A DNA stretch of 64,000 nucleotides, from NCBI GenBank assembly GCA_024399065.1, contig JAKSIB010000005.1, forward strand, positions 1 to 64,000, written 5' to 3'. Below, one piece after another: positions 11,576-63,397 of the stretch. This DNA comes from Fibrobacter sp. (lineage in GTDB: Bacteria > Fibrobacterota > Fibrobacteria > Fibrobacterales > Fibrobacteraceae). Numbering within the stretch: the first letter of the stretch is position 1; the number at the start of each line of letters is the position of its first letter. The translations under genes and the position numbers were made by a program. Under the pieces are notes generated by a model. It was not told where the DNA came from. It saw only the letters and a list, made by a program, of their open reading frames with translations, and ran no database searches.

Positions 11576-12603
11576 GCTTTCTCCCGGTAGGCATTTATTT
11601 CTTCCAATTGGGCGATAGACAAATCAGAAATCGGCTTAAAAATTCCGTCAATAAACTCGACCACATATTCGGGGCCATCTTCTTTCAGGACTTCATCCAA
11701 TATCTTGGTAAACGTCATTTCACCACTGCGGTCAATGTCATAAATGGTAGTATCAATCGTCAGGTAATGCTCATTGGTACAATGCCATTCCAATTGGACA
11801 CTTAGACGACCGAGACGGTCGTACTTTGTAATTAGAGATTTCAACGATACATTTCCAGCAACGTAATCATGCAGATCATCGTCGGTCATTCGTCGAATAC
11901 ATGCACAACGGCGTCTATTCTCGACATAAACGCTAGACTTAATATACTGCATTGTATTTACCACCGGGTGAAACAAATGGTATACAGTTCCACGATCTGT
12001 ATTTCGTAATATCGGACCAACAAGCCGCTGGCATTTTACCAAGAATGCATCGTCCTCGGCGCCCCAATTATTAAAGTCTTCATCAAACCCACCAATGGCG
12101 TCAAACGTGGCCTTTGTAAATACATTGCAAAGCCCAGTCTGTCTGGTAACATGCACACCATGGTCCTTAGGACCCGGTGTCAATGGCTGTCCGATGACCA
12201 CACGGCGGGTATCAACCTCTTTCAAGTAGATGGCCTCCGAATACGGAAACACCAAGGAGCCCTTGTTCCAGTTGTTACGAATATACTCGATACAAGCGTC
12301 ATCAAGGTATGAATCTGCGTCGCCCATCACATAAGCCTTATAGTCCGGATTAGATCGCACGGCTGCATTCAATAGCTTCGGTTTGCAAAAATCACCAGTG
12401 ATCGCCACTGGGATATGAATAAAGCGTTCGCCATATTTCGATCTAATCTCGCCGAATATGTCGTCAGTTGGATTCTGTTCTGCGACGCACAAATCGGCGT
12501 CAGGAAACCGAACCATAAAATTGTCAATCACAGCCATAATATTGCGTGACCTAAACATATTTCCTTTATTTAAAAAGGCAGTGATAATCAAAAAATCGCC
12601 CAT
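11518..12603 (-). CDS. Family 2-type (GT-A) glycosyltransferase
   Basis: A 361-residue protein. The GT-A fold is visible: an N-terminal strand FLIITAFLNKGNMF, the nucleotide-metal motif in AYVMGDADSYLDD (about residues 91-103), and GLCNVFTKATFDAIGGFDEDFNNWGAEDD (about 158-187). The last is the acceptor/base region typical of galactosyltransferase-like enzymes. The C-terminal third is unrecognised. It starts the minus group 12603 to 9039. Phage enzymes of this kind glycosylate virion proteins, modified DNA or host surface sugars; which applies here is unknown. Confidence 0.7.
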   Translation of the reverse strand: MGDFLIITAFLNKGNMFRSRNIMAVIDNFMVRFPDADLCVAEQNPTDDIFGEIRSKYGERFIHIPVAITGDFCKPKLLNAAVRSNPDYKAYVMGDADSYLDDACIEYIRNNWNKGSLVFPYSEAIYLKEVDTRRVVIGQPLTPGPKDHGVHVTRQTGLCNVFTKATFDAIGGFDEDFNNWGAEDDAFLVKCQRLVGPILRNTDRGTVYHLFHPVVNTMQYIKSSVYVENRRRCACIRRMTDDDLHDYVAGNVSLKSLITKYDRLGRLSVQLEWHCTNEHYLTIDTTIYDIDRSGEMTFTKILDEVLKEDGPEYVVEFIDGIFKPISDLSIAQLEEINAYREKACSLAKMSLKPTDTQSSMH

Positions 12604-12669
12604 AGCCGCACCTGTTTATATGGTTCAATGCATAAAAATATAGCAAAAATGGCCTAATTTTCAACAAAG

Positions 12670-12677
12670 GATAAACT
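12670..12677 (+). promoter_or_regulatory. Variant late-promoter octamer for terL
   Basis: GATAAACT, one mismatch from TATAAACT, 27 nt before the terL ATG, with an AAGGA ribosome site between. Confidence 0.4.
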
Positions 12678-12704
12678 TTACCACAAAGAAAACAAGGATT
12701 TACG

Positions 12705-15545
12705 ATGTCATTTAACGGAATTCACAATCTCCGTGACGCTAAAGAGAGCGTCAAGTACCAGCCATGGCAACTGGCTGAGATCAAGAGATGTTCTGAAGAC
12801 CCTATCTACTTCATCAATACATATGTGTATATCAACACGAAGGATAACGGAATGCAGCTATTCAAGACATGGCCATTCCAGAATGAAGCTATCAAGCGTT
12901 TCCTAAAATACCGTTTTAACATCAACCGATGGAGTCGTCAGGTCGGTAAGTCGACAATCGTTCGTGGGTTCATACTTTGGCATGCCATGTACCATAGTGA
13001 CCAGCTGGTAGCAATGCTCGCAAACAAACTTTCTCTAGCTAAGGAACAGCTACAGCTACTGCGTGACTCGTATGTTGCACTCCCGTACTGGCTGCAGCCC
13101 GGTGTCAAGCTATGGAACAAAATGTCCATCCAGTTTTCAAACAATACCCGTATAATCGTGGCGGCGTCGTCACCTGACGGTATCCGTGGTTTCTCCCCCA
13201 ACCTGCTATATCTGGACGAATTCGCATTCCTACGTTCAGGCATGGCCGATGAATTCATGGCATCAGTATTCCCGGCCATTTCATCAGGTAAGAAAACCCG
13301 TGTGATCATCACAAGCTGTGTCACTAAAGATACAATGGTATTCACACCAGACGGCATCAAAACCGTTGACGACTTCATTATTGACGATGGCCGCCGCCTT
13401 GGTTACGAGGTACCGGATTATCAGGTTCTGGGCCGTTATGGAATGAATCGTGGCCACATCATGCATAATGACGGCCATAAGGCGACGAAGGTTGTGGAAA
13501 CCCAATATTCAAGCATTGAATGCTCGCTAATGCACAAGTTCTGGGTTTGCCGTGATGGTGAATACAAATACATGCGTGCGCATGAACTGAAGCTAGGCGA
13601 CTACTTGATGGTACGGTATGGAATGAATTGCTGGGGTAATGATGAAATCAACTATACCCAACATCATGACGGATTAAGCATAAACGCAATAACACCTGAC
13701 TTGGCATATCTGTTTGGATTATATATTTCAGCAGGAGATATTAAGGATCAAACGTTATGCTTAACGATCGATGATGACATATCTACTTTGTTACGCAAAA
13801 TGAACCTGACAAATTATAAGCGTGACCAATTCCAATATCAGATTGCAAGCGCCGATATAGTAGACCTATTTAAGTTCGTTGGGTTCAATACCAAATTGCC
13901 AGCAACCCAAAAGGAAATACCCCCACGCTTAATGCGTATGAGCAAAGAATGCACGGCAGCCATGATTCAAGGCATGATGGATGGCAATGGTTGCACAACG
14001 GCGACACGTAAGCGTATTTCCTACACATCCACATCGCACAAGCTGATTAAGCAGCTCCGCATGCTTCTATTGAACTTCGGTATACTGTCGGCTATGGATG
14101 ATAAATATTCTCACGATATTGGCGGTAAACCAGCCCGAGAGTATGTACTACAGGCAACACGAGATAACCCGGCCCATTACGATATTATACCGTTCTCGGC
14201 ACAGGAAATCAGACGTCTTAAAAAAACGAACGTGCTAACTAAGGACATGATCAAATTAACCGACGGATGGCGTGGAAAAGGTCAACAGCATTTAAGCAGG
14301 AAACTTATTCTTGACATAAAGGCTCAATTACCACAAGACATTATCGATGCGGAGCCAGTGTTCCAGAACGCAGAACCCGATTTTGTGTGGGCCCCAATTA
14401 CCAAACTTACAGATAGCGAAAACGATGTATTCGATTTCTCGCTAAATGACGACAATTACGGCGGCGAGCAGTGGGCTCACTCGGTCATTTACAATGGTAT
14501 AACTGGTAGGCAAACTCCCGCCGGCCTTAACCACTTCTACCGAATGTGGGAAGATGCCGTCGAAGAAAGTACCGCTTCCTACCACGACCTCATGTCCAAG
14601 TATGTCAAGTCCACAGTTCTGTGGAGCGAGGTTCCGGGTCGTGACCAGCAATGGGGTGTAGACGAAATGGCCCGTATCGGCGAACAGAAATTCCGACAGG
14701 AATATGAATGCGAATTTGTGGGTTCTGCAGTCACACTTATCGACTATAAAATCCTCCAGAAACTCAAGGCATCCAAGCCTATCGCAATCCCGAACATTCC
14801 CAAAGACTATATGGTCAGAATGTTTAAGCGTCCAGAAAACAAGCAGAAGATGGAGGTTAACAAGTGGGTTTACGTTGCATCAATCGACAGTGGCTACGGT
14901 ATCCGAAAAGACTATCATGTTCTTCAGATTCTATTAGCCAAGCACAGTCTTGACGCTGAGCAAGTATTCGTAATGTCATCTAATACAGTGACCATCGAAG
15001 ACTTCTGTTCACTTGCATACAAAATACTGAAACTATACGGAAACCCACCGTTAACAATCGAATTCAACGGTCCGGGTTCACGAACATACGGAATCATGTT
15101 CAACCAGTTAGATTACGAGAATATTGTAAACTACGATAACAAGTTACACGGTCTATGGGCGACAAATGCGATCAAGCAGACAGCCGTTATGCTATTAAAG
15201 CTATATGTGCAGCGTTTCTATCTAAAGCTGCATGATGAGGCTACCATTACCGAACTAATGTCATTTACCCAATTGACGGTAAATAAATGGGGTGGTAGCG
15301 GCGGCAACCATGACGACAATGTGACGGCACTATACTGGGCCATCTACTACATGGCATCAGAATTCTTTGAAGGTGAACAGAAGGAAATGCGGTTCATGGA
15401 TGGTCTAGAGCTGGCATTTGCGTCTGCCGACAATGGCGATGCAGAGAATGCGGCAATCGAATTCATGAACGACGACTATGCAAAGGCAGAACAAGCTGCA
15501 ATGGGAGCATTAGAGAAAACATCTGGATTCGAAAACCAACGCTAA
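12705..15545 (+). CDS. terL: Terminase large subunit with in-frame intein
   Basis: A 946-codon reading frame made of a T4 gp17-like packaging motor split by a 399-residue intein. N-extein (residues 1-204): Walker A WSRQVGKST (76-84), Walker B LLYLDEFAF (168-175) and the start of ATPase motif III, RVIITS. C-extein (604-946): TPAGLNHFYRMW completes motif III. The RNase H-like nuclease follows with SIDSGYG..KDYH (about residue 728), IEFNGPGS and a final HDDNVTALYWA acidic site. The spliced protein would be about 547 residues. It powers DNA packaging at the portal and cuts concatemers. A TerS-like gene is far away at 42088. Confidence 0.95.
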   Translation: MSFNGIHNLRDAKESVKYQPWQLAEIKRCSEDPIYFINTYVYINTKDNGMQLFKTWPFQNEAIKRFLKYRFNINRWSRQVGKSTIVRGFILWHAMYHSDQLVAMLANKLSLAKEQLQLLRDSYVALPYWLQPGVKLWNKMSIQFSNNTRIIVAASSPDGIRGFSPNLLYLDEFAFLRSGMADEFMASVFPAISSGKKTRVIITSCVTKDTMVFTPDGIKTVDDFIIDDGRRLGYEVPDYQVLGRYGMNRGHIMHNDGHKATKVVETQYSSIECSLMHKFWVCRDGEYKYMRAHELKLGDYLMVRYGMNCWGNDEINYTQHHDGLSINAITPDLAYLFGLYISAGDIKDQTLCLTIDDDISTLLRKMNLTNYKRDQFQYQIASADIVDLFKFVGFNTKLPATQKEIPPRLMRMSKECTAAMIQGMMDGNGCTTATRKRISYTSTSHKLIKQLRMLLLNFGILSAMDDKYSHDIGGKPAREYVLQATRDNPAHYDIIPFSAQEIRRLKKTNVLTKDMIKLTDGWRGKGQQHLSRKLILDIKAQLPQDIIDAEPVFQNAEPDFVWAPITKLTDSENDVFDFSLNDDNYGGEQWAHSVIYNGITGRQTPAGLNHFYRMWEDAVEESTASYHDLMSKYVKSTVLWSEVPGRDQQWGVDEMARIGEQKFRQEYECEFVGSAVTLIDYKILQKLKASKPIAIPNIPKDYMVRMFKRPENKQKMEVNKWVYVASIDSGYGIRKDYHVLQILLAKHSLDAEQVFVMSSNTVTIEDFCSLAYKILKLYGNPPLTIEFNGPGSRTYGIMFNQLDYENIVNYDNKLHGLWATNAIKQTAVMLLKLYVQRFYLKLHDEATITELMSFTQLTVNKWGGSGGNHDDNVTALYWAIYYMASEFFEGEQKEMRFMDGLELAFASADNGDAENAAIEFMNDDYAKAEQAAMGALEKTSGFENQR
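13317..14513 (+). other. Intein inside TerL (residues 205-603) with degenerate LAGLIDADG domain
   Basis: The insert begins with Cys205 (CVTKDTMVFTPDG, intein block A) and has a block B-like CSLMHKFWV with His277. It ends with a block F/G-like stretch: VFDFSLNDD, HSVIYNGITGRQ, then Thr604. Removing it restores the expected terminase motif IITS-TPAGLNHF. The last intein residue is therefore Gln603, not the usual Asn, and the penultimate residue is Arg rather than His. Two LAGLIDADG-type helices are seen at 333-344 and 417-429. The acidic residue before the final Gly is Ala343 in one and Asn428 in the other. Confidence 0.85.
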
Positions 15546-19359: not shown

Positions 19360-19520
19360 TCAACCATTTTGCACAATAGGGTCATCTATTATCAATGATT
19401 GGGTGATTTCCTGCTTCAACGACCTGCACTGTTCTTGTGTTTCAAAGAACTGTAACCTCAAGTCTTTGGGGTGTGGTTCGGAACCACTACCTTCCCTACA
19501 GCATTCACTGCAAGGGCAAG
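19360..19520 (-). ncRNA. Candidate omega-RNA scaffold overlapping tnpB 3' end
   Basis: TnpB guide RNAs derive from the 3' end of tnpB and extend into the flank. Here the minus strand shows GTGGTTC/GAACCAC (19473-19487), a GTTCTT/AAGAAC stem nearby, and the typical GTTGAAGCAGGAAAT stretch close to the end. The overlapping protein tail (EGSGSEPHPKDLRL) is of the sort produced when a coding frame runs through such a scaffold. Boundaries are approximate. Confidence 0.4.
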
Positions 19521-20730
19521 CTTCAACGGCATATCTTGCCGCAGTTTGCTGTGTAGCAAAGCCATACAGCCACAGGCCGTAGAAACGTAAGTTTCTGGCC
19601 GCATTTACATCTCTATCGTGATGGAAGCCACAGTGAGGGCAAGTCCATTCACGAGTAGTAAGTTTCAAATCTTCTTTCTTGTAGCAACCACAGTTTGAAC
19701 AATACTTACTGCTTGCATAGAACTGGGGCGCCTTGATTAGATGGATGTTGTGCCATCTGCACTTGTATTCCAACTGAGTATGAATTCTGCCAAAGTTTGC
19801 ATCCAGAATAGATGAAGCCAGCTTGCGGTTACGGCTCATATTCTTAGGCTTCAATGTCTCGATGACAAGCACCTTTGGTGCAAGTTTCCGAGTCAGTTCC
19901 GTAGTACACTGGTGGGCTGAATTAACACGGATATTAGTTATCTTACGATGAATCCTAGCAAGTAGCTTAACTGCCTTCTTGCGGTTCTTGCCACCTTTTC
20001 TTTTTCTAGTTACCGAGCGTTGTTGCCTTTTCAAACGGGTTAAGTGTTTTCTATAAGCAATAGGATTATGTATGGCCTCACCATAGGATGTGATGGCTAA
20101 ATCCTTGATGCCGAGGTCTACGCCAACTATATCGTACTCATCATCCGTGATTTCTATTGTTTCGTTAACTGGGACTATATCGGTAACATAGGCAAACGAT
20201 ACATACCATCTATCTGCTGTCCTAGATATGGTAGCCATAGACAAAGGCACTTTATCCACTCCGTCTGGAATAGCGATATAATCTTTTTCTTTCAGCTTGA
20301 CCTTGCCTAGAGTAGGAATCTGCACAAAGTCCCTTCCGATATAGACTGAACCAGTCACACGGAAGCTGTCATTGATGCCAAACTTATGGAATCGTGGGTG
20401 CTTACCCTTGTTACTGAAGAACTTCTTCCACGCAGTGCCAAGGTCTCGCAAGGCTTCCTGACCGCAACACTTAGAAAGCTCAAGCAGCCATTCGTTACCT
20501 TCCAGCCTCTTGTAAAGTACCCATTCCTTATGCCAGTCTATCGGAGTACCTAGCTTGCACTTGGGTTTGGTTCCTTCTGGGACTAACTTCTTGGCTTCCT
20601 CGTAGGCAGCGTTCTGCTGGGCAAGTTTCCAGTTGTATGCCCTGCGTGCGGCAGCACAAGAGCGGATGCATACCCGTTCCTGTTCCTTGGTGAGCCGTAG
20701 CTCTATCTTTCTGCCACACTGCTGTTCCAT
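19360..20730 (-). CDS. tnpB: RNA-guided nuclease TnpB (IS605 OrfB family)
   Basis: A 456-residue TnpB. The RuvC triad is visible: D205 in VGVDLGIKD, E291 in VLVIETLKPKNM, and D374 in HHDRDVNAARN. The zinc ribbon is C344-x2-C347 and C364-x2-C367. All catalytic residues are present, so it may be active. About 75 residues follow the last motif and probably reflect read-through of the omega-RNA region. Its AGGA ribosome site lies in the 3' arm of the hairpin 20740-20772, which could limit translation. It nicks or cleaves DNA next to a short target motif, guided by its omega-RNA. Confidence 0.92.
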   Translation of the reverse strand: MEQQCGRKIELRLTKEQERVCIRSCAAARRAYNWKLAQQNAAYEEAKKLVPEGTKPKCKLGTPIDWHKEWVLYKRLEGNEWLLELSKCCGQEALRDLGTAWKKFFSNKGKHPRFHKFGINDSFRVTGSVYIGRDFVQIPTLGKVKLKEKDYIAIPDGVDKVPLSMATISRTADRWYVSFAYVTDIVPVNETIEITDDEYDIVGVDLGIKDLAITSYGEAIHNPIAYRKHLTRLKRQQRSVTRKRKGGKNRKKAVKLLARIHRKITNIRVNSAHQCTTELTRKLAPKVLVIETLKPKNMSRNRKLASSILDANFGRIHTQLEYKCRWHNIHLIKAPQFYASSKYCSNCGCYKKEDLKLTTREWTCPHCGFHHDRDVNAARNLRFYGLWLYGFATQQTAARYAVEACPCSECCREGSGSEPHPKDLRLQFFETQEQCRSLKQEITQSLIIDDPIVQNG

Positions 20731-20739
20731 ATTAAAAAA

Positions 20740-20825
20740 TCCTATTCAGAATCTGGTACATTCTAAATAGGATAGGTGGTCATAAGACCATCAAAACTCA
20801 ATCATCAGAATAGTACCAGTATTCT
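20740..20825. repeat. Two related hairpins at the left side of the tnpB element
   Basis: Hairpin A: 20740-20752 pairs with 20760-20772 around loop CTGGTAC. Hairpin B: AGAATA 20807-20812 pairs with TATTCT 20820-20825 around GTACCAG, the reverse complement of loop A. These resemble the subterminal hairpins recognised in IS200/IS605 elements. Confidence 0.6.
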
Positions 20826-20837
20826 AATTATACATAT

Positions 20838-20845
20838 AGTTTATA
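20838..20845 (-). promoter_or_regulatory. Late-promoter octamer upstream of tnpB
   Basis: Minus-strand TATAAACT, extended to TATAAACTATAT, 107 nt before the tnpB start. The region 20846-20961 beyond it holds only a short C5/G5 hairpin (20924-20938), a possible weak terminator for the gene at 20962. Confidence 0.5.
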
Positions 20846-54790: not shown

Positions 54791-54798
54791 TATAAACT
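54791..54798 (+). promoter_or_regulatory. Late-promoter octamer upstream of tnpB remnant
   Basis: TATAAACT, extended to TATAAACTATAT, 109 nt before the tnpB-remnant ATG. The leader between holds strong inverted repeats, including TTGGCGTTC/GAACGCCAA and a 14 nt pair around TGGCTGGTAGTGGA. Confidence 0.5.
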
Positions 54799-54907
54799 AT
54801 ATGGTGGATAGGATAATTGGCGTTCTCCAATCCACGTAATCAGAGAGTTTTTGATGGCTGGTAGTGGAATGAACGCCAAATTAGTCCGCTACTAGCCATT
54901 TCTGTAT

Positions 54908-55827
54908 ATGATAAACAAGGCATTCAAGATACGGTTGTACCCGACAGTAAGACAGGAGAAGTTCTTCAACAAGACCTTCGGCACTTGCCGTTTCATCTAT
55001 AACCAGTTCATAGACTTGAAGAAGTCAATCTTTGAAGAGTCTCGTATATCATTTACGCCTAAGTTGGCCTCGTTCAAGGAGGAATGGCCTTGGATGAGGG
55101 AAGCCGACAGTCAGGGAATGGCTAATGCCTATATGGATGCCAAGGGTGCATACCAGAAGTTCTTTGATGGCAAATCACGCTATCCGAAGTTCAAGAAGAA
55201 AGGGGATAAGCAGTCCTACCGCAATGCAATGATGTCTAAGACAATGGAAACATTGATTCGGGGTGCTAGGAATGACCGCATATTCATTCCGAAGGCTGGT
55301 GAGGTCAAGTTCCGACAGGACTATGATTTCAAGTCATTGCCTATAACCAAAGTATGCAGTCTGACGATATCCAAGTCAAATACAGGCAAGTATTTCTGTT
55401 CCATCCTAGTGGAAATGGATGATGAACGGATGAAGTTGCCACCTAATCAAAATGATGTTGGTTTCGACCTCGGCATCAAGGATTTCCTGATAGACAGCGA
55501 TGGCTGTGTCATTGAAAATCCAAAATATTTCCGAAAGAGTGAGCAAAAGTTGGCAAAGGAACAGCGAAAGCTGTCACATTGCACCAAAGGCTCCAATAAT
55601 TATCGGAAGCAGAAGCATCGTGTCGCTCTGGTACACGAAAAAATACGAAACCAGAGAATTGATTTCCAGCACAAGGTCAGCAAGAGACTGATAGTAGAGA
55701 ACCAATGACTGAGGGAATGGATAAATCCATTAAGCCTGTTGATACTGGTGTGGTTGCACACCGTGATCAGGAAGCCTGTAATGCCACGGATGGGCACGGG
55801 GAAACCCACCCATCTTTAGTGGGTGGG
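54908..55827 (+). pseudogene. tnpB: Truncated tnpB, C-terminal catalytic half deleted
   Basis: The open frame 54908-55708 encodes 266 residues: the N-terminal RNA-binding part (MINKAFKIRLYPTVRQEKFFNKTFGTCRFIYN) and RuvC-I (VGFDLGIKD, D187). It stops at RLIVENQ, exactly where the RuvC-II glutamate segment should begin. In another frame the sequence resumes as TEGMDKSIKPVD..., then QEACNATDGHGETHPSLVGG, the usual TnpB C-terminal tail over the omega-RNA. About 110-130 codons with RuvC-II, the zinc ribbon and RuvC-III are missing. It cannot be a nuclease as it stands, but could still bind its RNA. Confidence 0.8.
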
Positions 55828-55834
55828 TAGTTCA
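55709..55834 (+). ncRNA. Candidate omega-RNA scaffold retained after tnpB deletion
   Basis: Follows the truncated tnpB. GGTGTG/CACACC stem near 55747-55762 and the terminal CCCACCC/GGGTGGG hairpin (55805-55827) ending in TAGTTCA are typical of IS605-type right ends and their guide scaffolds. Confidence 0.45.
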
Positions 55835-56560: not shown

Positions 56561-57682
56561 ATGGAATCCCCTAAAATGCTTTTACTAAGTAATACAGGTA
56601 AATTTAACCAAGCTATGGCCCTGATATCAGAATCGATCACAGATTTGAATACCAAGGCGATGTTGTCCACCCATGAAAACGAAGATGGACTCATCATGCT
56701 AGATATTGATACAGAAAACGGCATCCATACTTCAGTGAGTACGATGTTGTCTTCGGCCCCGTTTGAACAACCAGTATTTATCTTTGCAAATGACCTTTGC
56801 GTCGCATCCAAGAAAATTCGTACAGAAAAAGCAACGGTAATGTGGATTGCCGATGGTAAATTGTACATGGGTGCCTACTATAATGACCGTCTGGAAGGTT
56901 TTGAGCTGGAATGTGGATTTAAGCCGGCGGGTGAATTTTTCCCAATGACCGACATTAACCCAACATCTACGGTAGACATTGACCAGATGACATTCAACAC
57001 CGTTATTGATGCACTTTATGAATTCGATTCATTGGAAATCTACCGAAAGAACGGAATCGTATCATTCAGGACTGGCGACGACAGAATTACCATTGCCACA
57101 GTAATGCAGGCTGCAACAACACAGACATCGGATGCGCCAGATTTCTCCATCCGCATTGCAGCAAACACATTCAAGGTATTGCCGTTGATCAAATCGATTT
57201 CAGATGAACTTGATGCAGTTGTAAAGCTGGAAATCGACGATCGTCTCAAATATCTGCGACTTTCCGCAAAAAATTCCCAGATTGTCGCCGGGTATGAAAA
57301 TACTAAACTAGAAACATTCACGTCTACAGGGCTCAAAAAGTTCATCACGATCGACAGCGGTGCAATTGCGGCATCCATTGACATAATATTCGGGATCAAT
57401 TACATCAACCCAACAGGCATGCTGACCATCAGCGCAATTGACGAAGGTACCATTTCCGTCGAAAACTCTGACGAAGAACGTATTCACGTCAATCTAAGTG
57501 TAGGCGAGGTGACAGTTCACGATCAGTCCATGAAGGTTAAAATTCCGGCAGACATTTTGACAATGATGATCAGAAATTCAAACTGTCCAAAACTAACGCT
57601 TGAAATCGACCAAGATTCCCGAAAAATGATGATGCGATATGGCAACGGATTATTCCTGAGAAAATGCACGGCATCATACTAA
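56561..57682 (+). CDS. Sliding clamp-like protein (DnaN-type length)
   Basis: A 373-residue protein. Its size and repeated strand-helix-strand layout fit a three-domain beta clamp. The middle FSIRIAANTFKVLPLIKSISDELDAVVKLEIDDRLKYLRLSAKNSQIVAGYE and the final KIPADILTMMIRNSNCPKLTLEIDQDSRKMMMRY look like DnaN domains 2 and 3. T4 gp45 is only about 228 residues, so this would be a dimeric, bacterial-type ring. Residue-level support is modest; it may be another alpha/beta replication protein. An AGGAG site precedes it. Confidence 0.45.
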   Translation: MESPKMLLLSNTGKFNQAMALISESITDLNTKAMLSTHENEDGLIMLDIDTENGIHTSVSTMLSSAPFEQPVFIFANDLCVASKKIRTEKATVMWIADGKLYMGAYYNDRLEGFELECGFKPAGEFFPMTDINPTSTVDIDQMTFNTVIDALYEFDSLEIYRKNGIVSFRTGDDRITIATVMQAATTQTSDAPDFSIRIAANTFKVLPLIKSISDELDAVVKLEIDDRLKYLRLSAKNSQIVAGYENTKLETFTSTGLKKFITIDSGAIAASIDIIFGINYINPTGMLTISAIDEGTISVENSDEERIHVNLSVGEVTVHDQSMKVKIPADILTMMIRNSNCPKLTLEIDQDSRKMMMRYGNGLFLRKCTASY

Positions 57683-57734: not shown

Positions 57735-57998
57735 AAGTTGACAAACTCCCACGACTAAAGTACGTGGGATTCTCCATCCCCGCCAATGGACGCCACCTTG
57801 CCCGATGGCTTCGCCACTTCTACCGCTTTGCGGTATCTTCGGCATTATACGGGGCCAGCGGCGAACCCTAGCATGAAAATTTTTCGCTTAATCACCACGA
57901 TATTACCCGTTGTATGACCAACACTCAAACTTTCAATTCAAATATAGTTTATAACTTTTATTTTGTCAAGAGGTTTCATCCCACGGCTAAAGCCGTGG
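57735..57998 (-). mobile_element. tnpB-less IS605-type relic with guide-RNA-like right end
   Basis: A roughly 265 bp stretch without a gene. Read on the minus strand it opens with a hairpin (arms near 57976-57984 and 57989-57998, loop with CTTTA) and closes with a hairpin CCCACG...CGTGGGA near 57748-57772, also with a CTTTA loop. Both have the form of IS605 ends. Between about 57775 and 57880 the minus strand is rich in stems (for example ACCGC/GCGGT and TGGCGAAGCCA). It precedes GGATGGAGAATCCCAC, like the end of an omega-RNA. No tnpB or tnpA is present. Confidence 0.55.
57946..57953 (-). promoter_or_regulatory. Late-promoter octamer inside the tnpB-less relic
   Basis: Minus-strand TATAAACT, extended to TATAAACTATAT, lying between the left hairpin and the structured right half. 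It points towards the guide-RNA-like segment. No coding sequence lies downstream within the relic. Confidence 0.5.
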
Positions 57999-58007
57999 GC
58001 TTTCAGT

Positions 58008-59624
58008 TCAGCGTAATTCAGGCAGATCCTCTACGTCCGTTCCCTGTTCTTCATTGCCACCTTCATCAGGCGCCAACGGATTTTCATAGTTATCACCAAG
58101 TGCCGCATTAGTAGCATCAACAATATTATCAGACGATGCGTCAAAATTGGAATCAAAACTAAATCCAGCGTCGGCACTACCGGAACCGCCGTCAGAATAA
58201 GCATTCCAATCAAGATTACCAGCATCAAAGTCCATCGTAATACCATTGTCATAATCATTGGCACTATCGTTACCATCACCCCAAGTATTCATCTTGATAG
58301 AATCAACACTCATATTCTGGTTATTCTGATCCTTATACACGGTATCACCGAAGATCTGTTTCATCTTATCGGCAAACATGCTCAAATTCACGTCTTCGCC
58401 CGGATTATTGATGAACTTGACAAATTCATCCATCTGCTGCAAAGTAACATCGGTATCCAATTCAGAATAGTAATTAAGGAATGCGTTAGCCTTCTCGATG
58501 GCTGACGAACCCTTAATAATACCGACGCCGCCATGCAAGATTCCGTCAACCGACACAGGGTTTAAATTAGTATCCTGACCAGATGTGATCAGCAAGTGTG
58601 CATTCTGGGCAATCAGCTTTTCCAGAGTTCCAAGACCAAACGATGCATCGCTGTTGGATGTAGTATCAGTATCAATATTTGAAATTGAATCGACACCCGG
58701 AACTGAATTGCCTGACATCAACTTAATAAGCGCATCACGGAAATTGACCATATCATCCGCTTCAGGATTTTCGTTTTCTGCATTTACGCTACCCGGAGTC
58801 TGAGCAACCATTTCATCAGGTCCCGACATTCCGTTAATATTCGAAGGATCCTCACCAGCTGGTGCTTCAAAATTACCTGCACCGGCAGCCTGTTCATCCC
58901 CATCAGCGTCACCTTCAGCTTCAAACATTGCAGCGTCATTGCAAATTTTCAACAACTTGCTCAGGCCAGCGTCAACAGATTCACGAATCATAGCACTCGG
59001 CTGAATAATCGTATCATTAACATCACGCATTGCAGTGCCCATTCCATCCAGAATGTCAGAATTTTCAATGTCATCTGTTACTGAATAGCCATTAGCCTCA
59101 TTCAACGCATCAATCGACTTCAAAATTGTATATCCAAAATTCATGCGGAACTGATCACTGTCCAACGATACTTCATAAAGCTTAGAATTACCAGATTCAG
59201 TCAACAACTTAATACTAATGTTTTTGTTGACATTAGGGTAGTACATTTCAACAAGCACTCGGGTATCATGTCGATTGACGATGAACTTACAGTGAGTTTC
59301 TTCCATGTCAATGCTGCTAAGATTTAGGCGCATGGAATGATCGGCAGTCTTAGACGTTGCTTCAGTCAACGAATGGATGACCTTACCATAGATATCCTTA
59401 ATCGTCATGAACGGTCTTGACGACGTAAGGGCCGGGTTCTTGTCATAAAGGCGCTTATCGTGCTTTTCATTATCCTGAGGCTTGGTAATTGGACCCAGAA
59501 TCTGTTTAGTCATGACTTCAATCTGTTTGGACTTAGCCGGCACAACGGGGCCGCTAGTAGTAGTTACGTAGCTAAGGCCCTGAATAGCCTCAAACAACTG
59601 TTTCTTATCAAATTTCTTTTCCAC
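58008..59624 (-). CDS. Large acidic late protein
   Basis: A 538-residue protein, not recognised. The first 210 residues form a mixed domain (LNLSSIDMEETHCKFIVNRHDTRVLVEMYYPNVNKNISIKLL). Residues about 235-300 and 440-538 are acidic, Asn/Gly/Asp-rich and probably disordered. Several LTEA/LNEA sites would fit the (I/L)xE prohead-protease rule, though not in the N-terminal module seen elsewhere. It has its own late octamer. A capsid-related role is possible. Confidence 0.6.
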   Translation of the reverse strand: MEKKFDKKQLFEAIQGLSYVTTTSGPVVPAKSKQIEVMTKQILGPITKPQDNEKHDKRLYDKNPALTSSRPFMTIKDIYGKVIHSLTEATSKTADHSMRLNLSSIDMEETHCKFIVNRHDTRVLVEMYYPNVNKNISIKLLTESGNSKLYEVSLDSDQFRMNFGYTILKSIDALNEANGYSVTDDIENSDILDGMGTAMRDVNDTIIQPSAMIRESVDAGLSKLLKICNDAAMFEAEGDADGDEQAAGAGNFEAPAGEDPSNINGMSGPDEMVAQTPGSVNAENENPEADDMVNFRDALIKLMSGNSVPGVDSISNIDTDTTSNSDASFGLGTLEKLIAQNAHLLITSGQDTNLNPVSVDGILHGGVGIIKGSSAIEKANAFLNYYSELDTDVTLQQMDEFVKFINNPGEDVNLSMFADKMKQIFGDTVYKDQNNQNMSVDSIKMNTWGDGNDSANDYDNGITMDFDAGNLDWNAYSDGGSGSADAGFSFDSNFDASSDNIVDATNAALGDNYENPLAPDEGGNEEQGTDVEDLPELR

Positions 59625-59654
59625 GATAGCATCCTCATTAATGCGTTTATCACA

Positions 59655-59662
59655 AGTTTATA
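59655..59662 (-). promoter_or_regulatory. Late-promoter octamer for the gene ending at 58008
   Basis: Minus-strand TATAAACT, 30 nt before the start codon. Confidence 0.6.
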
Positions 59663-59713
59663 ATATAATAATTAAAAAGGATCTATCCACCAAAGTGGTG
59701 TTTTGGACAAAAA

Positions 59714-59721
59714 TATAAACT
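59714..59721 (+). promoter_or_regulatory. Late-promoter octamer for the LRR gene
   Basis: TATAAACT, 42 nt before the ATG at 59764, running directly into a TA repeat. Confidence 0.6.
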
Positions 59722-59743
59722 ATATATATATATATATATATAT
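59721..59743. repeat. TA dinucleotide repeat (about 11.5 units)
   Basis: An uninterrupted 23 nt TA tract between the late octamer and the GAGG ribosome site of the LRR gene. Length could vary by slippage. Confidence 0.9.
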
Positions 59744-59763
59744 TACAAAAAATGAGGTAGCGT

Positions 59764-60534
59764 ATGAGCGGCATATTAATGCATATGGGGATGGTTAATT
59801 TAGTGGAGAGGCTAACACAAACACATAATGGAATACCAAGTACCCCAGTACACCCAAATGTTCCACCGAACCCGAATATATTACCCAAGACTACTAAGTT
59901 AAAACTTAGATTAAATAATGACGATTTTGACCCAACGGAAATTGAGTCAGATTATCATCTATTCATTAAATGGTCTAAAGATGAGGAAGATTCTAATATA
60001 TGGACAATGGAAATTAATCCGGAAATCTTTATTGATGCAGAAACATTGGCACTAAATATACGTGAGATGTCAGATGAATTTGAACCGCATGCCATTGATA
60101 AGAATCATATGAGGATGAAATTTCCACTGGAATATGCCGATGAGCTTACTGGCAATGAAGTTGCCGAACTATTGTATGATGAATTTTCCGAATTTGGGTG
60201 GATAGCCGAGAACGATACCGTTAAATATATTGAAACTGATGATGACAATGCTGCTTATGTGTTAGAAATTACTGCAACGAAACATGCGACTGCCGATAAG
60301 ATACGATTAAATGATTATCTGGATGCTTCTGTCAATGATAATGTATCTTTATTATCATGCGATATTGGTAGCGACATGTTAACATATACGCCCGGATTAT
60401 TCAGTGACTGCACTGGCATCACAAGTATTGGGAGCGATGCATTCAATAACGTCATTGATGGAACCGAGATGTTCCGTGGATGCACTGGGTGGGTTAACTA
60501 CTATACCAAGCAATTCGTTCAATTCAGTTACTAA
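59764..60534 (+). CDS. 5' part of a frameshifted leucine-rich-repeat (BspA/DUF285-like) protein
   Basis: This frame gives 256 residues: a Pro-rich N-terminus, a globular alpha/beta region (about residues 40-190), then the first repeats (GLFSDCTGITSIGSDAFNNVIDGTEMFRGCTG). It then runs into 14 unrelated residues and a stop. At 60487-60494 the sequence GGGT occurs twice in tandem. Deleting one copy joins it in frame to the next entry and gives one protein of 1209 residues. GAGG precedes the start. The gene is visibly more AT-rich than its neighbours. Confidence 0.75.
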   Translation: MSGILMHMGMVNLVERLTQTHNGIPSTPVHPNVPPNPNILPKTTKLKLRLNNDDFDPTEIESDYHLFIKWSKDEEDSNIWTMEINPEIFIDAETLALNIREMSDEFEPHAIDKNHMRMKFPLEYADELTGNEVAELLYDEFSEFGWIAENDTVKYIETDDDNAAYVLEITATKHATADKIRLNDYLDASVNDNVSLLSCDIGSDMLTYTPGLFSDCTGITSIGSDAFNNVIDGTEMFRGCTGWVNYYTKQFVQFSY

Positions 60535-63397
60535 TGCAACTAATATGTTTGCCGAATGTTCATCACTAACTGAAATCGAAAATGGAAATTTTATATCATT
60601 AATTAATGCTCAAGGAATGTTTGCTCTGTGTACATCATTGGAAACATTTGATAATACGTTTAATTCGGTAATCGATGGATCTAATATGTTTAGGGGTTGT
60701 ACCGCATTGACGTCAATTCCTGATGATTCATTTAAACATGTGCAATGCGGAAATTCAATGTTTAGCATGTGTTCATCTTTGAAACTGGCACAATTAAGCT
60801 CATTTGAGTCATTAACTGATGCACAATATATGTATAGTATGTCCGGGGTATGCGACATATCAGGTTCATGTCTCGACAAAATACAATATGGGGATGGGAT
60901 GTTTGCTCACTGTAATATAGATTGTATTCATGATATTAATATGGATAATCTCGATACAGGATCCAATATATTTAGTGGATGCGCAATTCGAACCATAACT
61001 AATGTTGTTACTAAATCGGCTAATTGGGTTGGTCGCCTACCAATGCTAGAAGAGGTTCATAATTTACAAATTACTGGAACTAGTGCATCGCATTGTTTTG
61101 CAGAATGTCCAAATCTGGTGCAGATTACTGATATTACTATGCCAAATGTTACTGATGCATCCTACATGTTTGCTGATTGCAATAAACTGGAACAAATTAG
61201 TATAGGCGGAAATCCGCAAATTGATAATGCATCATATATGTTTGCTGGATGCGGGGATTTGAAACAAGTTAGTATGGGTGAAAACCCGCATATTGATAAT
61301 GCATCATATATGTTTGCAGGCTGTTATAATTTAGCTGCATTACCGGAAATGGATTACTCATCCATACGAGATGCATCATATATGTGCGCTTACTGCGAAA
61401 CGCTTGAAATATTTACAAAATATATGCCTAATGTAACTAATGTTATTGGTATGTTTGAAGGTTGTTGGAATATTCTACTTGTTGATAATATTAATTTTGA
61501 TAATATTACTGATGCGTCATATTTATTTAAAGATTGCGCACATCTATCATATATAAAAACCCTTAAATTCAGAAATGTTAAAAATGCATCCCATATGTTT
61601 GATGGATGCCGTTTTGGCCTAGATATAATTGACAATGAGTTCAATAATTTAACGACAACTGACTTTATGCTTGCCGGTACCTCACTCAGCGGCTTGTCTC
61701 TAAATATGACAAATGTGACCTCAGCAAGATATATGTTCAGGAATTGTGGACATATACCTGATTTATTGAGCGGTGAGTTAGATGTTAGTAATGTAATTGA
61801 TGCGTGTGGAATGTTTAGCGGATGTACCATGGGTGGAGTCATTGAATGGTCTTCAGAACTACCGTTTAACAATGTTACTGATGTAACTCATATGTTCGAT
61901 TCATGTAAGAATATCACTATGGTTAATTTGAGTTGTTTTGGTGATCAGGTTACTGACACATCATATATGTTTAATAATTGCGAGAACTTGGTTGAGTGCC
62001 ATATAACTAACATTAAGCCATGCAACACAAATCATATGTTCTATTCTTGTGGTAAACTAGAAACCTTGACTATGGATATAAGTAATATAACGGATGCCCA
62101 GTTTATGTTTGCCCATTGTAATCTAAGAGTATCTGTAAATCAGGAATTCATGGGCTTCATGCAAAAATTATCTAATGCATCATATATGTTTTATGACTGT
62201 AATGGCATTGATGCAATTGATTTTGAACACAACACTATAGTTGATGCATCATATATGTTTAGTAATTGCCATAATTTACCTCAGGTAGATAAGGTCAATG
62301 TTCCGATGGCAACAAATGTATCGCACATGTTTGATAAATGTGATGCTTTGACGACCATCGAGGAAATGGTAGTTACTGAAGCGATTGACGCATCATACTT
62401 ATTCTCTGGTTGCAGCGCATTAACCGAAATACGGAAATTTGTATCATCGAATAAGCTTGACAATGTAGCTAGTATGTTCGTTGAATGCACTAATTTAACC
62501 AGTATCCCGGAATTTGACACATCTGGTGTGACAAATATGGGAAATATGTTCTCTTATTGCGAAAATCTGGCTGAAATTCCGGAATTGGACACATCTAATG
62601 TGATAACTATGGAAAGAATGTTCTTCAGGTGTTTCGCATTACAAGCTATCCCGGAATTGGACACATCTAATGTAACAACTATGAGACAGATGTTTGTTTA
62701 TTGTGATAACATCTTGACTATCCCGGAATTGGACACATCTAATGTAACAACTATGAGCCAGATGTTCCATGGTTGCAGTAAGTTAAGAGAGGTTCCTCAT
62801 TTAAATACATCGAATGTTATTAATATGTATGGAATGTTTGATAATGGTGATGGGTTTAAGCCAAACAATACTTCATTGGCAAGTCTACCTGAACTGGATA
62901 CGTCTAATGTAACAGATATGTCATATATGTTTAGGGGATGCAAGGGACTTACCGATGTTCCGCATTTTGACACTCGTAATGTAACGGAGATGTATAATAT
63001 GTTCTCTGGCTGCACTAAATTGCAACATGTGCCTGATTTTAATACATCTAAATGCAAGGCTATGCGATCTATGTTCTATAATTGTAGTAGCTTACTGACT
63101 GCACCGAATTTTGATACATCTAACTGCCAATTTATAAATAGGATGTTCTATGGCTGCACATCATTAACCGCTGTACCACTATATGATTTATCTGCTGCAA
63201 CCAGTATATATAGTATGTTCTATAATTGTAAGTCAGTGGCTAGTGGAGCCCTTGCGTTATATCAAAAGGGTTTCCCCTCCGTCGTATGGCCATCTGAGCG
63301 ATCTGATATGTTCTACAATTGTGGCATAAATACAGATACGGGATTGGAGGAATTAAAGCAGATACCGAAAACGTATGGTGGCTTACTGGTAGCATAA
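60404..63397 (+). CDS. 3' part of the frameshifted LRR (BspA/DUF285-like) protein
   Basis: The frame is open from before 60404; the meaningful part begins about 60495, and the first in-frame ATG is at 60545 with no good ribosome site. It encodes some 40 repeats of 22-25 residues with the core DASYMFxxCxxL or TSNVTxMxxMFxxCxxLxxIPELD. These are the pattern of BspA-type LRRs and mycoplasma DUF285 surface proteins. Such proteins bind host or matrix surfaces, so an adhesion fibre or decoration role is likely. It ends GLEELKQIPKTYGGLLVA. Exact 40 nt DNA repeats occur at 62646-62685 and 62718-62757. Confidence 0.75.
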   Translation: MTALASQVLGAMHSITSLMEPRCSVDALGGLTTIPSNSFNSVTNATNMFAECSSLTEIENGNFISLINAQGMFALCTSLETFDNTFNSVIDGSNMFRGCTALTSIPDDSFKHVQCGNSMFSMCSSLKLAQLSSFESLTDAQYMYSMSGVCDISGSCLDKIQYGDGMFAHCNIDCIHDINMDNLDTGSNIFSGCAIRTITNVVTKSANWVGRLPMLEEVHNLQITGTSASHCFAECPNLVQITDITMPNVTDASYMFADCNKLEQISIGGNPQIDNASYMFAGCGDLKQVSMGENPHIDNASYMFAGCYNLAALPEMDYSSIRDASYMCAYCETLEIFTKYMPNVTNVIGMFEGCWNILLVDNINFDNITDASYLFKDCAHLSYIKTLKFRNVKNASHMFDGCRFGLDIIDNEFNNLTTTDFMLAGTSLSGLSLNMTNVTSARYMFRNCGHIPDLLSGELDVSNVIDACGMFSGCTMGGVIEWSSELPFNNVTDVTHMFDSCKNITMVNLSCFGDQVTDTSYMFNNCENLVECHITNIKPCNTNHMFYSCGKLETLTMDISNITDAQFMFAHCNLRVSVNQEFMGFMQKLSNASYMFYDCNGIDAIDFEHNTIVDASYMFSNCHNLPQVDKVNVPMATNVSHMFDKCDALTTIEEMVVTEAIDASYLFSGCSALTEIRKFVSSNKLDNVASMFVECTNLTSIPEFDTSGVTNMGNMFSYCENLAEIPELDTSNVITMERMFFRCFALQAIPELDTSNVTTMRQMFVYCDNILTIPELDTSNVTTMSQMFHGCSKLREVPHLNTSNVINMYGMFDNGDGFKPNNTSLASLPELDTSNVTDMSYMFRGCKGLTDVPHFDTRNVTEMYNMFSGCTKLQHVPDFNTSKCKAMRSMFYNCSSLLTAPNFDTSNCQFINRMFYGCTSLTAVPLYDLSAATSIYSMFYNCKSVASGALALYQKGFPSVVWPSERSDMFYNCGINTDTGLEELKQIPKTYGGLLVA
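62646..62757 (+). repeat. Exact 40 nt direct repeats in the LRR gene
   Basis: 62646-62685 and 62718-62757 are identical and 72 bp apart, one LRR unit. A third, imperfect copy starts near 62576. They could recombine to add or remove one repeat in frame. Confidence 0.85.

Follow-up and report, generated by a model that had tools for sequence, protein, structure and literature searches.

Gene-less IS605 relatives with an omega-RNA have been mentioned for Geobacillus. The IS608 element is cleaved at TTAC and TCAA, and its guides AAAG and GAAT adjoin the hairpins (PMC5934647). The PATEs (palindrome-associated transposable elements) of Haloquadratum are short IS605 derivatives that lack a transposase and have palindromes close to their ends (PMC3119063). 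For ISDra2, cryo-EM revealed an RNA in which the loop of stem 1 pseudoknots with the tail before the guide, together with stems 2 and 3 and a right-end stem capped by a UUUA loop; stem 3b is dispensable, and stem 3a is not reported to be so (PMC10097598). Cutting of the restored empty site has been proposed for ISDra2 (PMC8612924), and cutting of element-free copies has been shown as a gene drive on plasmids (PMC11870625).

The unit described here resembles IS608/IS605 of Helicobacter pylori in its cleavage sites, guides, subterminal hairpins and lack of target duplication (PMC5934647); it differs from IS608 in having neither tnpA nor tnpB, in lying in a phage and in carrying a phage-type promoter. 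With the PATEs it shares short length, the absence of a transposase, IS605 ancestry and near-terminal palindromes, and it differs from them in residing in a bacterial virus and in having a recognisable omega-RNA core and a promoter, the available part of the PATE description being without an omega-RNA (PMC3119063). The unit is best read as a putative phage counterpart of the archaeal PATEs.

The window (the whole stretch of 64,000 nt that was analysed) corresponds to positions 1-64000 of contig C5 (164 kb), part of an assembly of 3.8 Mb and 118 contigs. Judged by eye, its genes (tail, terminase-like, DNA polymerase and others) form the set of a large phage, and the closest relatives found were virus contigs from IMG/VR, up to 422 kb long. 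A 946-aa terminase-like ORF (12705-15545, +) has an apparent intein-like insert (CVTKDTMVFTPDG...), recognised by eye from the translation.

Borders, ends and insertion site of the element

Five sister elements of 1.3-1.75 kb are present in the same assembly (C5:102881-104631 and C15:3062-4405, 11801-13145, 59593-60938 and 72358-73741), and the borders of the unit, 57738-58012 on the minus strand, are where likeness to them ends and the flanks differ. The original prediction had rightly recognised a minimal IS605-type element without transposase or TnpB at this place; its limits, 57735-57998, were corrected by the sister elements. The left end (LE, 41 nt) is 88-98% and the right end (RE, 34-38 nt) 92-95% identical to those of the five full elements, and in all six elements, the 275-nt unit included, similarity is limited by TTAC and TCAA. 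The tetranucleotides recognised by TnpA, all four of them exact matches to those of IS608, and both hairpins are intact. The predicted left hairpin, CCCACGGCTTTAGCCGTGGG, is present at 57980-57999. The right end CTTTAGTCGTGGGAGTTTGTCAA occupies 57738-57760, and none of 100 shuffles contains one, even when 3 mismatches are allowed; its hairpin carries an inserted T. Folded as DNA, the whole unit has a z of -3.9. The coordinates of all features are collected in Table 1.

Table 1 Features of the 275-nt element and its flanks
Feature	Position	Strand	Remark
Whole non-autonomous IS605-type element, 275 nt	57738..58012	-	Ends common to five full elements
TTAC target and left cleavage tetranucleotide, expected TAM; in the flank, outside the element	58013..58016	-	Precedes 6/6 elements; equals IS608 CL (PMC5934647)
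Left end: guide AAAG and hairpin CCCACGGCTTTAGCCGTGGG	57980..58003	-	AAAG equals IS608 GL (PMC5934647)
Promoter-like TTGACA-N17-TATATT, overlapping phage motif TATAAACTATAT	57941..57969	-	Only such match in the window, 0.18 expected
Structured 5' part of presumed transcript, 123 nt	57812..57934	-	Can fold over stem 1
Omega-RNA-like stem 1, GCCATC/GGTGGC, loop GGGCAA	57792..57809	-	GGCA can pair with tail TGTC
Omega-RNA-like stem 2, TCCAT/ATGGA, 8-nt loop TGGCGGGG replacing stem 3	57773..57790	-	
Right end: guide GAAT, hairpin with TTTA loop (57748-57768), tail TGTCAA	57738..57772	-	GAAT equals IS608 GR, TCAA equals CR (PMC5934647)
Predicted 16-nt guide CTTCCTAAATGAATAG, flanking phage DNA	57722..57737	-	Placed by analogy with ISDra2 reRNA
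538-aa gene, 3' end interrupted by the element	58008..59624	-	Stop codon TGA, 58008-58010, is element sequence

A search for the same unit elsewhere in the genome, which the original prediction had proposed, was positive for both ends and negative for the interior: in BLAST of the 275-nt unit against its own assembly the ends alone matched, in five other places. The element is a single copy in the assembly, and it was not found in the genomes of 59 relatives. Its two ends are common to an autonomous element of the same genome, the copy at C5:102881-104631, ~45 kb from the unit, which encodes an intact IS200-type TnpA of 132 aa (PF01797, E 7e-40) and a TnpB of 367 aa (PF07282, PF01385). The four C15 elements carry tnpB, and one of them keeps a remnant of the tnpA start. 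The natural TnpA for the unit would be that of the C5 copy, and its natural TnpBs would be those of the C5 copy and of the four elements on C15.

Our main reading, to which we assign a probability of roughly 0.6, is that the unit is a non-autonomous, IS608-like element of the IS200/IS605 type that has lost tnpA and tnpB, has kept all requirements in cis and depends on TnpA and TnpB in trans. Mobilisation in trans, as originally suggested, suits an element whose ends are shared with a TnpA-encoding element on the same contig, and that the unit could undergo TnpA-driven excision and insertion in this way is highly probable. TnpA from the full copy would excise the DNA between TTAC and TCAA as a single-stranded circle, which would then be inserted after another TTAC.

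The element sits between two convergent genes, the 538-aa ORF and a 373-aa ORF (56561-57682, +). The latter has no match in Pfam and is called clamp-like with phage context as the sole basis; since it gave no match as a probe in IMG/VR, DNA polymerase was used as the probe for phage relatives. The element appears to have replaced the final codons of the 538-aa gene, which now ends ...PELR-stop and would originally have ended ...PELPS-stop. When the flanks are rejoined they read GAA TTA CCT TCC TAA, giving PS-stop instead of R-stop, and the empty site derived from them would be ...GAATTAC-CTTCCTAAATG.... In related phages the two genes are also paired, with no element separating them, at ~40% protein identity, which is too divergent for an exact empty site.

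A serious alternative, possible although well short of even odds, is that the unit is a dead relic, an IS605 copy with its core deleted in which ends and scaffold are leftovers without present activity. Solo hairpins of ~43 nt, in which LE is fused to RE (TTAC-GCTGAACNGAAAGCCCACGRCTTTAGYCGTGGGAGTATGTCAA), are common in related large phages (L075, L083, L088, L093, L095, L096 and L148), with L075, L088 and L096 sharing one site, and are likely the scars of recombination between two end hairpins. Repeat-mediated core deletion is known for the haloarchaeal PATEs (PMC3119063), and the inserted T in the RE hairpin and a short, divergent scaffold (see below) also favour a relic. Arguing against it, the four tetranucleotides, both hairpins and the pseudoknot strands are intact, the only perfect -35/-10 match of the window is kept within the unit, and the interior is no simple remnant of any tnpB in the genome.

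The omega-RNA-like segment and its promoter

The stem-rich segment of the original prediction (57735-57926), said to end like an omega-RNA right end, has an RNA-fold z of -2.6, and its omega-RNA-like right end proved to be real when compared with the family. For an omega-RNA model, 30 stretches of IMG/VR that share this right end were collected; the alignment held 15 sequences with upstream scaffold, including the phage's own, and the window unit was left out of the model. In this alignment 96.8% of cells are paired in three helices, 11 of 21 pairs show compensatory changes, and the covariation score of the core is reached by none of 500 shuffles. The unit matches the full length of the model, from 57811 to 57738, with 53.9 bits (E 2.8e-11). 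Intact members score 83-102 bits, placing the unit's scaffold ~30 bits under them, and most bare right-end hairpins score 31-40 bits (one 25); at least ~15 bits of the unit's score come from outside the hairpin, partly from the GAAT foot, which is absent in fused hairpins. The proposed covariance search was positive with the family-derived model and negative with the known families of Rfam, where neither the whole window nor a permissive run on the element gave a relevant family. The best matches were chance or simple hairpins, and none reached the gathering threshold for the element.

Stem 1, stem 2 and the right-end stem lie in order beside the right end, and the succession of stem 1, pseudoknot, stem 2 and UUUA right-end stem is that of the ISDra2 reRNA (PMC10097598, PMC8612924). 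By inspection, GGCA in the loop and UGUC in the tail would form the family pseudoknot, and a member carrying GACA remains able to pair; the corresponding strands of the unit, GGCA and TGTC, are complementary and would pair likewise. The unit differs from ISDra2 in a stem 3 cut to 8 nt, in a 5' part that does not come from tnpB and in having no tnpB in cis; its stem 1 loop ends in CAA, not CAU. Because stem 3 is missing, we regard the predicted RNA as omega-RNA-like and not as a complete omega-RNA. Folded alone, the 74-nt core adopts exactly the expected omega-RNA structure. When the entire predicted transcript is folded, the 5' part adopts a structure that outcompetes this core by ~5 kcal/mol, and joining the 16-nt guide to the core removes stem 2 from the predicted fold.

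The 5' part has no sequence relative in its own genome, in 80 genomes of the genus or in IMG/VR, and no exact 20-mer of the interior was found in IMG/VR. BLAST of the interior against the 80 genomes returned short chance matches only; among those inspected, two lie at orthologous places and consist of repeated coding-type sequence, and one was a coding repeat. An alternative reading is that the element is mobile through TnpA in trans and that its interior is an unrelated structured RNA or spacer with which TnpB is uninvolved. The 123 nt are unlike anything searched and compete with the core fold, and bare right-end hairpins by themselves already reach 31-40 bits. We nevertheless consider this reading unlikely, as the right end is in precise register with both stem 2 and a stem 1 that bears the family loop. 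In a test that excludes the right end itself, stem 1 with a GGGCA loop and stem 2 abutting GAAT were found in 2 of 20,000 dinucleotide shuffles, a figure that is somewhat optimistic since both the family and the unit were known when the test was designed, and that applies to strict stem rules failed by 2 of 6 family members tried.

Upstream of the segment lies the extended octamer of the original prediction, TATAAACTATAT, at 57942-57953 on the minus strand. The overlapping -35/-10 pair is weak evidence by itself, at least one match being present in 17 of 100 shuffles. For TATAAACTATAT there are 7 matches at <=1 mismatch in the window (0.5 expected), and its core TATAAACT is found 8-50 nt upstream of most ORFs after it and ~115 nt upstream of tnpB genes. 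We infer that TATAAACTATAT/TATAAACT is a phage promoter element; it precedes other phage genes and is positioned, as had been proposed, to transcribe the omega-RNA-like segment. The putative label 'late' for this motif rests on likeness to T4 TATAAATA.

Other gene-less copies and TnpB genes

Within ~320 nt of a 7-kb virus contig (L077) lie a left end, what looks like a promoter and an omega-RNA, and no tnpB of the same-end family was found on this contig; its omega-RNA score of 94.8 bits is not independent of the omega-RNA model, of which it is one row. In a related phage of 348 kb (G104), locus L140 (= L100) has a 92.9-bit omega-RNA scaffold at ~1500-1590, downstream of tRNA-Asn and tRNA-Met genes and with neither a left end nor tnpB beside it. 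The only TnpB found in this phage with the query used is 32% identical. The L077 and L140 copies both speak in favour of the main reading.

The 5' leaders of tnpB genes in this phage and a relative have two interleaved helices, A-B-A'-B', in the pattern of an H-type pseudoknot and with unrelated sequences. The leaders examined were 20731-20845 (-) and 54791-54907 (+) of the window, C5:102936 and L073; where cleanly detected, the pattern ends 7-8 nt before the ATG. Helices as good were seen in 0 of 500 shuffles for 20731-20845, 54791-54907 and L073, and likewise for C5:83065, which has other helices. In the E2 and E4 leaders the pattern is visible by eye with bulges only, and the automatic test gave 53-55 of 500. 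Such modelled pseudoknots may possibly exert translational control of TnpB. The 5' part of the unit was also considered as a tnpB leader pseudoknot and was rejected, 146 of 500 shuffles being equally good.

A further TnpB family, whose ends differ (RE AACCCACCCATCTTTAGTGGGTGGGTAGTTCA), is represented at 54908-55834 (+) by a tnpB cut off at 266 aa, with the TNB domain absent and a right end following closely. The TnpB at 19363-20730 (-) has the OrfB and TNB families, the phage promoter motif and a leader pseudoknot, with no recognisable LE or RE, and may be a domesticated TnpB that has no guide RNA in cis. That the phage recruited the guide RNA for this stand-alone TnpB at 19360, the partner named in the original prediction, for regulation or targeting, is very improbable despite the latter's missing element ends, its two families and the common promoter motif: its identity to the five TnpBs whose elements share this right end is only 29-34%, and the guide CTTCCTAAATGAATAG has no perfect TAM-flanked second target in the assembly and matches no more often than a reversed control pattern.

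Possible use of the RNA by TnpB in trans

Under the main reading of a non-autonomous element served in trans, the transcript from the phage promoter would read through the scaffold into 16 nt of flank, and a TnpB of the family would bind it and cut TTAC-CTTCCTAAATGAATAG, which is the restored empty site. Element-free sister genomes would then be repaired from element-bearing ones. We put the chance that TnpB uses the unit's RNA to cut the empty site somewhat below even. The outcome envisaged, in which element-free copies are cut at the recorded site, is that of the plasmid gene drive, with the difference that the nuclease would come from another element (PMC11870625). If TnpB cuts empty sites and TnpA moves the unit, the element would therefore be a parasite of the family's transposase and RNA-guided nuclease. 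Its fullest form, a guide-RNA-only homing parasite, can be advanced only tentatively: a protein-free element of 275 nt, moved by TnpA and spread or retained by TnpB, whose trans-acting omega-RNA from a phage promoter would destroy element-free genomes in mixed infection.

Transposase-free IS605 derivatives are known from the PATEs (PMC3119063); what would be new is that the element sits in a phage and carries a phage promoter, has naturally lost stem 3 and keeps its guide apart from the nuclease. Searches of the open literature, which leaves many journals uncovered, gave no account of a phage element with an omega-RNA only.

The unit may indicate how far an RNA-guided element can be stripped, namely to two hairpins, a promoter and a 74-nt scaffold, and would provide a natural minimal omega-RNA without stem 3. 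If its RNA works in trans, TnpB homing would be a public good open to gene-less elements, and the unit would mark a move away from guides encoded in cis and towards independent guide RNAs like those of CRISPR-Cas12.
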